64,000 nt of DNA from Thermaceae bacterium. Its GTDB lineage: Bacteria; Deinococcota; Deinococci; Deinococcales; Marinithermaceae. The notes beneath the pieces were generated by a model that saw only the letters and a list, made by a program, of their open reading frames with translations, searched no databases and was not told the origin of the DNA. Shown here piece by piece: positions 49,799 through 59,967 of this stretch. Location of the stretch: NCBI GenBank assembly GCA_027067955.1, contig JAMOUW010000054.1:1-64000 (forward strand). The letters are read 5' to 3'. Numbering within the stretch: the first letter of the stretch is position 1; each line of letters begins with the position of its first letter. Position numbers and translations under genes: made by a program.

Positions 49799-49917
49799 AC
49801 TTGGTATACCCACACCCTGTTTCTAACGGCACCTGATAATGATGCCGAGGGTGTACAATGCCTTAACAGTATTTTGATACGTGAAAGGTGTTGTGCTGAT
49901 CGACGGGGTTGGGGAAG

Positions 49918-51036
49918 ATGAAGGGCGCCACGGCTAGCAACGGTTACACCAGCATGCTGGAGCGGGACGGCTCGGCACCGTTCGAGCGCGTGCGCAGGCG
50001 CCTGGTTATCACTATGCTTTTGCTGGGTGCCATTGCTAGCCTTGCCGCCCTTTATCTCGAGCTCATCATCGATGCCACCAACCCGGTTGACCTTTTTTTC
50101 CTGCCTTTGATGTTCGTGTCGTTTCTGGGGATGGGGGTCGCCCTGGTTTATCGCCGTGGCAGATTGCAGCATTTTGAAAACGCCGCTTACCTGATACTCG
50201 CCCTCTACGGTTTTCTCATGCTGGTTCACCAGGTACGGCACACGCTTACTGAAATGCACACCTTCACCGAAACCATGTTCTGGTTCCCCATGCTTTATTT
50301 GATGGCGTATCTGTTGCACCGCCGAGCTATGGCATTGCGCATTGCGGCGGGCATTTGGTTGGCGGCGTTGCTGCTCGGGGTTTTTAACACGCCGTTTGCT
50401 GAACTCTGGCTTAATAGAGATGCCAATGCGTTTAATTCCTTGGTTCAATTTTATATATCTGGCATCGTCTACATAATGTTGCTCTATGTTTTCTCGCGTA
50501 TTGAGGAGGGATATACCCAAAATAGATTGCTGGCTTACCTCGACCACCTTACGCAGCTCCCCAACCGTCGTTACGGTGAGGAGCTGCTGGCGCAGCTATT
50601 GCGGGAGCGGGGTGACCGGGGTGAGGCTTTCAGCGTCATCATGCTGGATCTGGACGGTTTCAAGAAGGTGAACGATCATCACGGCCATGACGTAGGCGAC
50701 CGGGTACTGAAACGCTGCGCTGCGGCCATTCAAAGCAACCTGCCCCTGGGGGCGCGGGTAATTCGCTGGGGCGGGGAGGAGTTTCTCGTCATCCTGCCCG
50801 ACCACGACGAAGCGGCGGCGTGCAAGGTTGCTGAAGACGTCCGCCAAGGGCTGGAGGCCACTTCCCACGAAGGGGTGGGGCCGGTTCTCGCCAGTCTGGG
50901 CGTGGCTGAGTGCCGCCGGGGCGACACCCTGGACATGCTCATTCAGCGGGCGGACCAAGCCATGTACCGGGCCAAACAGGCCGGGGGCAACCGGGTAATG
51001 GCTATCGCCCCCAAGCGGCAGGCCGTAGAGGCCTAA
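49918..51036 (+). CDS. Membrane diguanylate cyclase (GGEEF)
   Basis: About 372 residues. The N-terminal half has five or six membrane helices ([102 protein letters not shown]). The C-terminal half is [41 protein letters not shown] and an intact [11 protein letters not shown]. No RxxD inhibitory site is seen before it. It probably senses a membrane signal. I chose the ATG at 49918 with GGGGAAG upstream; a TTG at 49909 is possible. TACAAT at 49854-49859 is a candidate -10. Confidence 0.88.
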
Positions 51037-52211
51037 CTTCCCGCGGCGTTCTGCAGGTCCGCGATGCGACCGGTTTCCTCCCAGGGGAAGGCGTCGCGAC
51101 CGAAGTGGCCGTATGCTGAGGTTTCGGTGTATATGGGGCGCAACAGCTCGAGCTCCTCGATGATGGCCAGCGGCCGCGGGTCAAATACCTTGCGCGCCAC
51201 CTCGGTGAGCTGGCCGTTGGTCAGGGTCCCGGTGCCGTAGGTTTCTACCCGCAGACCCACGGGGCGCGCCTTGCCGATCGCGTAGGCCACCTCCACCAGG
51301 GCGCGCTCGGCGAGGCCGGCGGCTACGATGTTTTTGGCCATGTAACGGGCGTAGTAGGCCCCCGAACGATCTACTTTGGTGGGGTCCTTGCCGCTGAATG
51401 CGCCGCCGCCATGGGGCACCGCGCCGCCGTAGGTGTCCACGATGATCTTGCGCCCGGTAAGGCCCGCGTCTCCGTGAGGCCCCCCCTGCACGAAGCGTCC
51501 CGAAGGATTGATGAGGAAATGGGTGTCTTCGCGCAGCAGCCCCGCCGGAATGGCCTGACGGACCACCTTTTCTATCAGGTCGTCGCGCAGCTCCTCCTGG
51601 TCTATCTCCGGGGCGTGCTGGGCCGAAAGAACCACGGTCTCCACATACAGGGGCCTGTCGCCGTCGTAGGCGACCGTTACCTGGGCCTTGCCATCGGGAC
51701 GCAGGTAGGGAAGGGCGCCGCTCTTGCGAACAGCGGCCAGGCGGCGGGTCAGGCGGTGTGCGAGGGTTATGGGAAGGGGCATGAGCTCCTCGGTTTCGCG
51801 GGTCGCATAGCCGAACATGAGGCCCTGATCCCCCGCGCCCACCTGGTCGTAGGGATCGGTGGACCCCAGGACGCGCACCTCGTAGGCGGTGTTTACCCCT
51901 CCGGCGATGTCGGGAGACTGCTCGTCGATGGCGGATAGAACCGCACAGGTGTCCCCGTCGAAGCCGAACTTGGCGCGGGTGTAACCGACTTCCTTCACGG
52001 TGCTTCGTACCAGATCCGGCAGGTGCACGTAGGCCTTGGTGGAAATCTCTCCTGCCACCAGGACCATGCCGGTTTTTACCAGCGTTTCCGCAGCCACCCG
52101 CGCCGATGTGTCTTTGGCCAGAATGGCGTCCAGGATCGCGTCGGAAATGCGGTCCGCGAGTTTGTCGGGGTGCCCTTCAGTTACCGATTCGGATGTCACC
52201 AGTCGTAGCAA
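51033..52211 (-). CDS. metK: S-adenosylmethionine synthetase
   Basis: 392 residues. Catalytic motifs: [17 protein letters not shown] (His14 binds the ATP phosphates), [35 protein letters not shown] in pieces, and FINPSGRF-like [14 protein letters not shown]. It makes S-adenosylmethionine from methionine and ATP. I start it at a TTG (52211), 5 nt after GGAGG; the longer frame to 52280 adds a stretch unlike MetK. TATATT in the 65-nt gap after rsmA could give extra transcription. It ends 4 nt into the convergent GGDEF gene. Confidence 0.96.
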
Positions 52212-52276
52212 CGTTTCCTCCAAGATGCTTCTGCGGCCGGGGCCGCTCAGCTCTGAATATACCGCGCGCGCGAAGA

Positions 52277-53098
52277 TCACGAGACGGGTTTGCCGAGCGC
52301 GGCGTAGAGCGTGCGGAATTCGTCTATGCCTATGCGCTCGGCGCGCACCATGGGGTCGATTCCTGCATCCTCCAGGGCCGCCAGCACCTGTTTGCGGGGC
52401 CAGCCCGCCTGTTCCAGGTTCTTGCGCAGGGTCTTACGGCGCTGGGCGAAGGCCGCCTCGATGAGCTTGAATAATCCGGGGTCGTCGGGCTGGCCGCTGT
52501 GAACGATTTCTATCAGGGTGGAAACGACCCGGGGCCTGGGAAAGAAGACCTCGGGGGGGAAGTCGCGCACTATTCGAACGCGGGCATGGTGGGCTGCCCG
52601 CAACGAAAGCAGGCCGTACGCGGGGGTACCGGGCGCTGCGGCCAGGCGTGTGGCCACCTCTTTTTGTAATAACACGACCATGCGCGCGAAGCTGCCCCGG
52701 CGCAATAGCTCGCTGAGCAGAGGCGTGGCTATGTTGTAGGGCAGATTGGCTACTAAGAGATCTTCCCTGGAAACGGCCGACCAGTCGTGATCGAGCGCGT
52801 CGCTAAAGTGCAGCGATACCGGAAGACCGGCCAGGGTTTCGCGCAGCACAGGCTCGAGCCGCCGGTCTTTCTCTAGCGCGTGCACCCGGGCGCCCGCTTG
52901 CGCCAGCGCGCGGGTCAGCGTTCCCAGCCCCGGCCCTACCTCCCAGACCGTTTGCCCCGGTTGCGGATCGGCGGTTCTGATTATCAGGTCCAGCAACCCA
53001 GCGTCCACGAGGAAGTTCTGGCCGAACCGCCTGTCGGCGCGCAGGCCGTGGCGTTCCAGGATGGCGCGGACGGTGCTAAGTTTCGTTAGCGAGGGCAT
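52277..53098 (-). CDS. rsmA: 16S rRNA dimethyladenosine transferase RsmA (KsgA)
   Basis: 273 residues. Rossmann methyltransferase: [10 protein letters not shown] (N-terminal signature), motif [17 protein letters not shown] (about 51-66), LEKDRR, and motif [15 protein letters not shown] (about 116). The C-terminal helical domain has [12 protein letters not shown]. It dimethylates the two adjacent adenines near the 3' end of 16S rRNA. It overlaps carD by 23 nt and is followed by metK, which makes its methyl donor. Confidence 0.95.
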
Positions 53099-53570
53099 CC
53101 AGTTTCTCGGTCAAGAAGGCCTCCGCGGAGCGCAGGTCGCCCAGTCCGGCGAGGGCCAGCTCCTCGCTCAGGATCCCCACCAGTTCACGGTATTGCTGGT
53201 GTTCGGTACCCGAGAGGGGGCGCTGCTGGTGGCGGCGATGCAGCGAGGCGAGCATGCGCGCCAGCTCCAGCGGATTGCTCTCATTGAGGGCGCGGCCTAT
53301 CTCGCGCTGGCGCGCTGGCCAGCCGCTGGCTAGGTCGCGCGCCTCGCCCAGGGCCGCCAGCAGGGCGTCGCGGTCGGCTCCGGCAAGAGGATAGCGAAGG
53401 CCCAGGGTCTCGGCCTTTTCCACCGGAACCATTATCGTCCCCGGTTTTCGAAGCAGCTCTATTACGTAATAGGTGTTGCGCTCGCCCATGACCTCGCGCT
53501 CGGCGATTTCGCGAATATATCCGCCACCCTGGGCGGGGTAGACTACCGGGTCCCCGATGTTAAACCCCAT
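53076..53570 (-). CDS. carD: CarD-family transcription factor
   Basis: 164 residues. The N-terminal RNA-polymerase-interacting domain (Tudor-like) spans about 1-60: GFNIGDPVVYPAQGGGYI, TYYVIEL and IMVPVEKAETLGLR. The C-terminal helical DNA-binding domain contains SGWPARQREIGRALN and RPLSGTEHQQYRELVGILSEEL in pieces. It binds the polymerase beta subunit and stabilises open promoter complexes; in this phylum it is well studied in Thermus. The ATG at 53570 has TAAGAT 7 nt upstream; a longer frame to 53606 lacks similarity. Confidence 0.93.
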   Translation of the reverse strand: MGFNIGDPVVYPAQGGGYIREIAEREVMGERNTYYVIELLRKPGTIMVPVEKAETLGLRYPLAGADRDALLAALGEARDLASGWPARQREIGRALNESNPLELARMLASLHRRHQQRPLSGTEHQQYRELVGILSEELALAGLGDLRSAEAFLTEKLDALANET

Positions 53571-53577
53571 GGCGGCT

Positions 53578-53583
53578 ATCTTA
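53578..53583 (-). promoter_or_regulatory. Internal -10 box of carD, leaderless
   Basis: Minus-strand TAAGAT ends 7 nt before the carD ATG and overlaps the stop of the metallophosphatase gene. TTTGCC about 18 bp further upstream could be the -35. Confidence 0.5.
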
Positions 53584-54351
53584 ACCCGCGTCCGTGGTTT
53601 GGGCAAACCGCATGATCTCCCATTCGACGCTGTCGGGCAGCGGTACCAGATCCAGGTATTCCCCCAGGTCGAGGGCGTCTATGAGGGCGAAACCGTAGTC
53701 TTCGAAGACGCGGATGCCCTTTTTCATTACGGTATGGCCGTAGACGCCAAAACGGTAGCCAGCGCGTTCGAGGTAGTCGGGGTTGGTGATCCACCACTCC
53801 TTCGACTCCTTGGACTGGTAGAACATGTCGTCGTATTCCTGGAGCCAGGGAGCGGGGCCGACGTGAGCGAAATGGACGCCGTCGATTACGAACTCCTTGG
53901 GCAGACCGCCCAGCCATTCCGCCAGCGAATCCGGCAGCGCTTTGCCACCCCGTTCGGGGTCGAACTCCGCGTGCTCAATTCCCGACGCGTTGCCGAGCAG
54001 GAACTTGTGGTCCAGCGCGGCCTGGTCGTGATTGCCGCGTAGAACGATCACGTAGCCGCCGGCCTGTTCGGTAAAACGCCGGATGCGACTGAGGGCTCGT
54101 ATCTGTTCGCGGGCGGCACGGGCGAGATGATCGGGGTTGCGGGCGTCGTAGTCTTCTATTCCCGTCAGCCTGGTATAGGCGTCGCGGTTCTTCGGGTGCA
54201 CCAGGTCGCCGAGCAGCACAACCCGCAGGTGGCCGGAGCGCAGCGCCGGGGTGGGTAGATAGCTGGCGTCGGCAGCGCCCGCGTGGCGCAGGGCCTGCCA
54301 GAGCTTGCCGTACTCGGCGTGTACGTCACCGATGGCTACGATGCGCGTCAT
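53581..54351 (-). CDS. Calcineurin-like metallophosphatase
   Basis: 256 residues. All five metallophosphoesterase motifs are visible: GDVHAE (8-13), LLGDLVHPKN, LRGNHDQAAL, FAHVGPAP and VYGHTVMKKG. They bind two metals and hydrolyse phosphoesters. The substrate is not known; nucleotides, proteins and nucleic-acid ends are possible. It is coupled to the Rad52-like gene by a 1-nt overlap (TGATG), which favours a nucleic-acid or DNA repair role, but this is inference. Confidence 0.87.
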   Translation of the reverse strand: MTRIVAIGDVHAEYGKLWQALRHAGAADASYLPTPALRSGHLRVVLLGDLVHPKNRDAYTRLTGIEDYDARNPDHLARAAREQIRALSRIRRFTEQAGGYVIVLRGNHDQAALDHKFLLGNASGIEHAEFDPERGGKALPDSLAEWLGGLPKEFVIDGVHFAHVGPAPWLQEYDDMFYQSKESKEWWITNPDYLERAGYRFGVYGHTVMKKGIRVFEDYGFALIDALDLGEYLDLVPLPDSVEWEIMRFAQTTDAG

Positions 54352-54863
54352 CAGCTGGGCTCCTTTTCAATGAGCAGAGCGCGTAGTTCGCCGTAGAGTT
54401 TCTTGGTGGTTTCAGGGTCGTTGCCGTAGCCGCCATACCTGACAACCAGCGTAGCCGCTTCCTTGCCTTTTCCCTGTTCACGCAGGCGGGCAATGAGGCG
54501 ATCTATTAGCTCCTGGGCGCTTGACTTGGGGGGTGCCGCGGCGGGTTGTCCGCTGTCTGGAAGCCGGGGCGGCAACGGCTTTCTGCCTGCGCCGGCTTGC
54601 GCGAGCGCCATCCAGAATGCCGCCACTGCGGCGTCTTCCAGCGTGGGGCCGCTACCTACGCCGCTCTTGCTGGCCCCTCCCAGCTCGAGCATGCAGCTCA
54701 CCGCGGGTGGTTGCGCCGAAGCGATGGTGAAGCGGCAGCTCCAGCCTCCGGGGCCCCAGACGTCGTCGAGCTGGTCGTAAATTTCGGTGACCTGCGGGCG
54801 CTCACGATCGCCGGGCCCGATCTCCAGGAGGTCGTGCATTGCGCCCCAGGTAGCATCGTCCAT
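54351..54863 (-). CDS. Putative Rad52/DdrA-like single-strand annealing protein
   Basis: About 170 residues. The pattern VTEIYDQLDDVWGPGGWSCRF, then a strand VSCMLELGG, SKSGVGSG and the helix EDAAVAAFWMALAQAGAGR resembles the beta-beta-beta-alpha core of Rad52/DdrA proteins, where aligned motifs read LDxVxGPxxW and AxxxAFxxAAxxFGIGR. A Pro-rich linker (98-115) leads to a tail (RLREQGKGKEAATLVVRYGGYG). Family assignment is by pattern recognition and is uncertain. I prefer the ATG at 54863: TACAAT ends 7 nt before it; an ATG at 54872 adds three residues. It heads a five-gene operon. Confidence 0.6.
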   Translation of the reverse strand: MDDATWGAMHDLLEIGPGDRERPQVTEIYDQLDDVWGPGGWSCRFTIASAQPPAVSCMLELGGASKSGVGSGPTLEDAAVAAFWMALAQAGAGRKPLPPRLPDSGQPAAAPPKSSAQELIDRLIARLREQGKGKEAATLVVRYGGYGNDPETTKKLYGELRALLIEKEPS

Positions 54864-54870
54864 TTCTGCC

Positions 54871-54876
54871 ATTGTA
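54871..54876 (-). promoter_or_regulatory. -10 box of the Rad52-like operon, leaderless
   Basis: Minus-strand TACAAT ends 7 nt before the ATG at 54863. Confidence 0.5.
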
Positions 54877-55076: not shown

Positions 55077-55152
55077 GGGGCCGTGGCGCAGTTGGGAGCG
55101 CGCCTGAATCGCACTCAGGAGGTCAGGGGTTCGAATCCCCTCGGCTCCACCA
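55077..55152 (+). tRNA. tRNA-Ala (anticodon CGC)
   Basis: A full cloverleaf. Acceptor GGGGCCG pairs with CGGCTCC and includes the G3-U70 wobble that identifies tRNA-Ala. The anticodon stem CCTGA/TCAGG encloses ATCGCAC (anticodon CGC). T arm AGGGGTTCGAATCCCCT. CCA is encoded at 55150-55152. It decodes GCG, which fits the GC-rich codon use here. Confidence 0.97.
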
Positions 55153-58338: not shown

Positions 58339-59961
58339 CTATTCTTCGGCGATTACGATACGGTCGCGCCCTTCTTCCTTGGCGCGCATGAGCGCATCGT
58401 CGGCTTTCAGTATCCAGTCTTCGATGTCGTCATTGCTAAGGGGTACCCGTCCTCCGGCCAGACCGACGGAGGCCGTTACCCGCTCGCGCACGTCGGCGAG
58501 GCGCAATTCGGATATGCGGGCGCGGACCCGTTTAAAAATCCTCTCCGCCTGGTGCAGATCGCTGTCGGCGAGCAGGATAAGGAATTCCTCGCCGCCCCAG
58601 CGAACGGCGAGGTCATTATCGCGCAGATTACGTTCCAGAATTTCGGCCACGGCCTGCAGAAGCACATCCCCGGCGGCGTGACCGTAGCGGTCGTTGACCT
58701 GCTTGAAGCGATCCAGGTCTAGCATGGCGATGGTAACGAGGCGCCTTTCCCGCATGGCGCGTTCCAAGGCGTAGGGCAACCGTGCCTCGAAGCCCCGGCG
58801 ATTGAGCAGTCCGGTGAGCGGGTCGGTGTGCGCCTGTACCTGCCAGTCGAGGGAACGGAGAACCTCACCCAGGCGCTGGCCCACCATGGGGGCGAGCAGC
58901 TTCAGAAAGGGACCGCAACGCTGACTGCCCCGCAGGTACACCCTTCCGAGTTTGAGGCCGCGGTCTTCCAGGGTGCGTCCGTAATGGGTGCGCTCGCCCA
59001 CCAGCAGATCGTCAAATACGCTCAGGCGCAGTCCCACCACGTGTTCGCAGGCGCGTTGAAACAGGTTCAGGAGCTCGTTGGCGAGGCCCGCGGGCGTCGG
59101 GGGGGTTTGCGTGGCGGGGAAAAGCGCCAGGTCGCCCAGGATGCTGCTCCACTGGGTGAGTTGCGTTTCGGACCGGGTTTTGAACAAGTGCACCGGGAGG
59201 ACCACCGAAAGAATACCCCCCCAGGCCGAGAGGGTGCTCAGTGCCACGATATAGCCCGCGGTTATCTCGGGAACGTCGGCATTGATCCAGCCGAGTACCA
59301 CGAAGGCCCACATGGACATGAATGCGGTAACGGTGACCACAATATGGGGGGCGTGAATGGGGCTCCGCATTTGCTCGAGCCGCAGACCTTCCACGATCAG
59401 CCACATGCTCACGGTCCAGACGAGGAAGCCCAGCTGCATGCCCTGGAGGTCGGACAGCTGGGGCAGGGTTGCCCAGCTGGTCATGCCGATTTGTACGAAG
59501 ACGAGGGTCGGGAGCCAGAGCGCCCTGCCCTCGGGGGCGCGTCCCAGGATGATCGCGTACCAGGCGGGCAGCCCGAAGGAAAGTAGGACCAGCTGCAGTA
59601 TGAGCAACAGGTGCAGGTGCATGGCGTGGCTTACCTGCTGGCTTGCGGCGAAGGTAAAGCCGATGGGGAAGAGCATCAGCAGGTAATAAGACCAGGGCAG
59701 GGTTATTTTCCGGGCCAGCGAGTACAGCAATTCTATAAATGGTATGTAGCCAATACAGAGCATGGCCCAGAGCAGCAGCCTTATTACCGGGGGTTCCGGG
59801 TTCGTGTGGTAGGCGATGGCCAGGTACATTCCCCAGGCCGCCACCCAGAGCGCCAGTCCGTTTCCCACCAGTGTTCCCAGTTTGGGTATGCGGAACGCGC
59901 GGACTACCAGCACCACATCAATGACGATGCTGATCAGCACCAGTATGGGAAGGGCCGCCAC
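58339..59961 (-). CDS. Membrane diguanylate cyclase with large multi-helix sensor
   Basis: About 540 residues. Eight or nine membrane helices fill residues 1-275. A non-membrane region (about 285-375) precedes a GGDEF domain: [33 protein letters not shown] and an intact [11 protein letters not shown] (about 475), with an RxxD site (RDND) 5 residues before. The sensor part is not a family I can name; its layout recalls 7TM/MASE-type sensors. The GTG at 59961 has TATATT 6 nt upstream; a TTG just before it is the alternative. Confidence 0.88.
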
Positions 59962-59967
59962 CAACTC

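Follow-up and report, generated by a model that had tools for sequence, protein, structure and literature searches.

A reduced DdrA-family protein paired with a metallophosphatase gene in Oceanithermus

The window, a 64,000-nucleotide stretch of DNA, carries the Oceanithermus orthologue, inherited vertically, of the DdrA gene (Rad52/Erf-type) found in Thermus and related genera. This gene has lost the DNA-contact features of the family, keeps the C-terminal tail and the pairing with a metallophosphatase gene (mpp), and is under purifying selection. As for its function, which we infer, the best reading, to which a probability of about one half is assigned, is that this reduced DdrA would neither anneal ssDNA nor bind it tightly through a RAD52-type groove and would have been kept as an adaptor binding its partners through the tail.

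The initial annotation had placed here a protein of about 170 residues; both its position and its tail were borne out, the predicted product having 173 residues with the C-terminal tail GKGKEAATLVVRYGGYG. The features of the locus are the following:

54351..54872, minus strand: ddrA-like gene (reduced DdrA family), 173 aa, defined by the open reading frame and its homologues, by selection and by a core profile match
54582..54794, minus strand: remnant of the Rad52 core, residues 27-97 (helix, three strands, helix), with GPxGW and VGxG kept and the KR dyad replaced by W87-M88
54522..54581, minus strand: variable linker, residues 98-117, with pLDDT mostly below 50 and pN/pS near 1 in distant pairs
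54363..54521, minus strand: conserved C-terminal three-helix tail, residues 118-170
54349..54353, minus strand (motif coordinates on the plus strand): TGATG, in which the stop TGA of the ddrA-like gene and the start ATG of mpp share one base
53581..54351, minus strand: mpp, metallophosphatase (PF00149), the conserved partner gene
53076..53606, minus strand: carD-like gene, with a likely true start near 53570
52277..53098, minus strand: rsmA (ksgA)
51033..52280, minus strand: metK, kept downstream only within the Oceanithermus loci examined

The order proposed earlier, with a 1-nt overlap between the ddrA-like gene and mpp followed by carD, rsmA and metK (5' to 3' on the minus strand), was confirmed from the sequence. 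A divergent tRNA-Ala lies on the opposite strand (55077..55152), and the sole consensus promoter in the region sits on that tRNA strand, none being found for the ddrA-like gene; no radiation/desiccation response motif was detected upstream of it at up to 3 mismatches. The region is bordered by two predicted membrane proteins, each with a GGDEF-type (GGEEF) domain at its C-terminus (49909-51036 and 58339-59964). The open reading frame is a real gene, as supported by homologues in 37 of 41 relatives and by purifying selection among congeners. A sequencing frameshift at the N-terminus was discarded, since the short form is common to all the congeners, with 163-174 aa in five other copies.

By itself the window protein has no match in Pfam, NCBIfam or PHROGs, and neither it nor any other Oceanithermus chromosomal copy reaches the cut-off of Pfam Rad52_Rad22 (PF04098), which is passed by the same-locus orthologues of Marinithermus, the genus g2, Thermus and several Meiothermus. 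When the profile of five Oceanithermus cores was aligned with that of eight intact cores by hhalign, leaving out the tail so that it could not drive the match, a probability of 96.9 and an E value of 1.8e-10 were obtained over residues 29-99. The AlphaFold2 model of the window protein, of modest confidence as a whole (pLDDT 70.9, pTM 0.43, core blocks mostly around 78-91), shows two helices with three strands between them, followed by the three-helix tail. A fold search with this model gave human RAD52 (8rj3_C) as the best PDB match (E 4.1e-3, probability 0.98, TM score of only 0.25), and Rad52/59/22 proteins as the best named matches among viral proteins, while the intact Thermus-type core, modeled with a pLDDT of 94.9, found RAD52 and Mgm101 at E values down to 5.6e-7. 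RAD52 was reached by fold search only; it was missed by the sequence-profile searches of the PDB and by the single-sequence search, which gave just a DnaB-like chance match (E 0.09). Synteny, the core profile comparison, the predicted fold and the shared tail support the DdrA/Rad52 descent, in such a way that the comparison with Rad52 and DdrA suggested in the initial annotation came out in favor of kinship. The protein is indeed short, as had been pointed out, but what is missing is mainly a beta hairpin, corresponding to two extra N-terminal strands of the Thermus orthologue (18-24 and 30-36), rather than N-terminal helices.

The losses in the core affect the parts that would grip DNA. The basic N-terminal hairpin with R26-D27-x-x-R30 (Thermus numbering, as below) is missing in all six Oceanithermus chromosomal copies, and the K112-R113 dyad has become W-M, W-R, W-Q or E-M, the lysine being replaced by W or E in 6/6 and the arginine kept in 1/6. 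F118 is an alanine in the Oceanithermus copies, and the window protein also lacks, with respect to the Thermus-type core, the FG that closes the helix and the strand coming next. The net charge of the core is -3 to -6 in Oceanithermus (-4 for residues 27-97 of the window protein) versus 0 to +4 in Thermus, Meiothermus, Marinithermus and g2. In human RAD52 the ssDNA groove is lined by R55, Y65, K152, R153 and R156 (PMC3823998), and either R55A or K152A abolishes gene conversion in yeast (PMC12869081). No positive counterpart of R55, K152, R153 or R156 was found in Oceanithermus, save an arginine at the R153-type position in one of the six congeners, with R55 set opposite the hairpin by position and charge rather than by a structure-based alignment. 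Judged from these residues and the acidic core, the Oceanithermus protein probably no longer anneals DNA, so that of the Rad52/DdrA-like annealing protein first proposed the descent is supported and the annealing is not. The lysine is lost also in the copies of Trueperaceae and family f2, where the hairpin is mostly kept. In the mpp tree, Oceanithermus and Marinithermus group together (support 91/87) and fall, with g2, Thermus and Meiothermus, in a clade that is fully supported and in which an intact DdrA core is the rule for most members; on account of this placement, Oceanithermus and Trueperaceae seem to have undergone the loss separately.

Twenty columns are invariant over 14 sequences from five groups, mostly in the tail, which is 72-89% identical to that of the window protein within Oceanithermus and includes the conserved YGGYG of the DdrA orthologue group; LYGELR is also among its invariant residues. 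Of the 147 phage matches to the Thermus protein, none covers 80% of it, and those listed end before the tail. Within the plasmid collection, the tail was found only in O. profundus, on plasmid NC_014753 (135,351 bp; G001:C1, L046, 2904-3665), which encodes a second DdrA-type protein with the same tail and a Pfam-detectable, intact-looking Rad52 core, not located beside mpp. The other Oceanithermus genomes, not all of which are complete, showed no such second copy.

The conservation of the gene pair, whose inspection in relatives had been recommended, was studied in 111 genomes of the class outside Deinococcus, 103 of them with listed matches to both genes. In 96 of these 103 genomes the ddrA-type gene adjoins mpp on the same strand, the distance between match ends being 2 to 140 nt, supporting that the pairing is old and being consistent with a shared function. 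By families, adjacency was found in 13/13 genomes of the own family, 3/3 of f2, 30/33 of Trueperaceae, 50/50 of the Thermus/Meiothermus family and 0/4 of f5. The window gene holds the position directly upstream of mpp that the ddrA-type gene occupies elsewhere, and the mpp tree follows the genera. In the four f5 genomes mpp lies elsewhere and the DdrA-type tails have diverged; these proteins (L105-L108) bear a Cys-rich N-terminal extension, CxHLSPxGxWCRL..CP..GC, possibly zinc-binding.

The pair stays while its flanks change. The gene rsmA accompanies it in the loci of Oceanithermus/Marinithermus/g2 and of Thermus/Meiothermus, apart from one contig that ends at mpp, and is missing from the Trueperaceae and f2 neighborhoods. 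As for carD, it lies beside the pair only in Oceanithermus and Marinithermus, the only genera that have the operon copy (53076-53606), and Oceanithermus genomes have another carD-like gene at a different place; carD was discarded as a conserved partner for these reasons. Of the proposed tie of a repair protein to a phosphatase and an RNA polymerase factor, the pairing with the phosphatase gene is conserved and that with carD is reduced to a local neighborhood. Besides Mfd, two CarD-like genes are present in complete Oceanithermus genomes (that of the window at 53076-53606, and G000:C81:20794-20967).

The mpp product matches PF00149 (Metallophos) with 31.8 bits over a cut-off of 21.5, as do 12 of 12 orthologues, and the residues of its GDxH, GDxxH, GNHD and histidine motifs are invariant or nearly so. 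Its profile is nearest to a PPP-type phosphatase from Shewanella (2z72) and an ApaH-like phosphatase (2qjc), which together with the metal motifs leaves a Mre11/SbcD-type nuclease role without support. Most Trueperaceae have a second, unlinked phosphatase paralogue, 34-46% identical (for example G019:C1:2163290-2163955).

The role proposed for the reduced protein would derive from a Rad52 core cut to two helices with three strands between them and stripped of its basic hairpin, its Lys-Arg lysine and its positive charge, from which neither annealing nor tight ssDNA binding through a RAD52-type groove would be expected. What remains could be a small adaptor, possibly oligomeric, whose three-helix tail would bind a protein partner, by analogy with the C-terminal domain of Red-beta, a bundle of three helices whose ligands are exonuclease and SSB and not DNA (PMC8303780). 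The first partner candidates for the tail would be the co-translated phosphatase and SSB. What speaks against a tie between tail and phosphatase is the plasmid copy of O. profundus, in which the tail is present although mpp is not adjacent. A more speculative extension, in our estimate doubtful, is that the ddrA-type gene and mpp form an ancient two-gene module in four of the five families sampled, with the phosphatase controlling, or controlled by, the Rad52-fold protein, and that the Oceanithermus fold would have no DNA binding at all, being a pure phosphatase adaptor or regulator.

Since the core is still under purifying selection, it may keep another nucleic-acid role. The main rival to the adaptor, which we consider less likely, is that a DdrA-type protein reduced in this way still protects DNA ends. 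Orthology to DdrA-type genes, through synteny and the core alignment, speaks in its favor, and so does the fact that D. radiodurans DdrA binds and protects 3' ssDNA ends with no annealing detected (PMC515370), which is the reason why this rival stays first. Moreover, the GPxGW motif, part of a cluster at the RAD52 subunit interface (PMC3823998), is kept in 5 of the 6 Oceanithermus copies. Nevertheless, in 6/6 congeners the hairpin and the KR lysine are gone and the core charge is reversed, which argues against it.

It is improbable, in turn, that the core has become a module like the double-stranded-RNA-binding domains (dsRBDs), binding structured RNA or duplex DNA. The reduced helix-strand-strand-strand-helix unit does resemble them, dsRBDs making up most of the PDB fold matches after RAD52, and the products of the neighbors rsmA and carD have rRNA and RNA polymerase as their targets; however, the core is acidic, and the intact DdrA core matches dsRBDs too, so that these matches reflect a shared fold and not a new function.

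Quite improbable also is a decaying gene, which would owe its retention solely to the coupling of its frame with the translation of mpp. The core and the linker evolve fast, and the core is no longer Pfam-detectable, but dN/dS among the four closest congeners is 0.15-0.25 (around 0.2) for the core remnant and 0.08-0.13 (around 0.1) for the tail, values that are only rough beyond these four because synonymous sites are near saturation, and the frame is full-length in 6/6 genomes. On these ratios the gene is not a pseudogene. Finally, a chance strand-helix pattern joined to a shared tail, with no Rad52 kinship, would explain the missing database matches of the window protein, but it is largely refuted by the agreement between the core-only profile match, synteny and the fold search.

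DdrA homologues are already known in Thermus (PMC1978522, PMC1274311, PMC3235269), that of T. thermophilus being named in the first two, and the ancestral role of DdrA has been considered not tied to radiation (PMC1978522). The pairing with mpp and the reduced Oceanithermus form appear undescribed in the open-access papers searched. DdrA, a classic protein of the radiation response, has a puzzling role in thermophiles that are not radioresistant; a natural variant retaining tail and partner gene without the DNA-binding residues separates two functions, and the conserved phosphatase neighbor is a concrete candidate partner.

Among the known systems, D. radiodurans DdrA (DR0423) has 208 residues, and its core reportedly fails in vivo (Harris, Ngo and Cox 2008, cited in PMC8254717). 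It belongs to the same Rad52-related lineage, a likeness taken from the literature (PMC1978522, PMC515370). The N-terminal annealing domain of human RAD52 resembles the window remnant in predicted fold, and Red-beta likewise ends in a three-helix domain. Regarding the phage Erf-like proteins, the Thermus orthologue matches phrog_1097 (Erf-like, E 1.1e-32), unlike the window protein. The DdrA-type "Rad52/22 family" protein of Thermus, Meiothermus and Marinithermus (TTC1923 in T. thermophilus) shares with the window protein the locus beside mpp (and rsmA), the tail and a homologous core, from which the Oceanithermus form differs in being acidic and in lacking the N-terminal hairpin, the KR lysine, the FG and the following strand.
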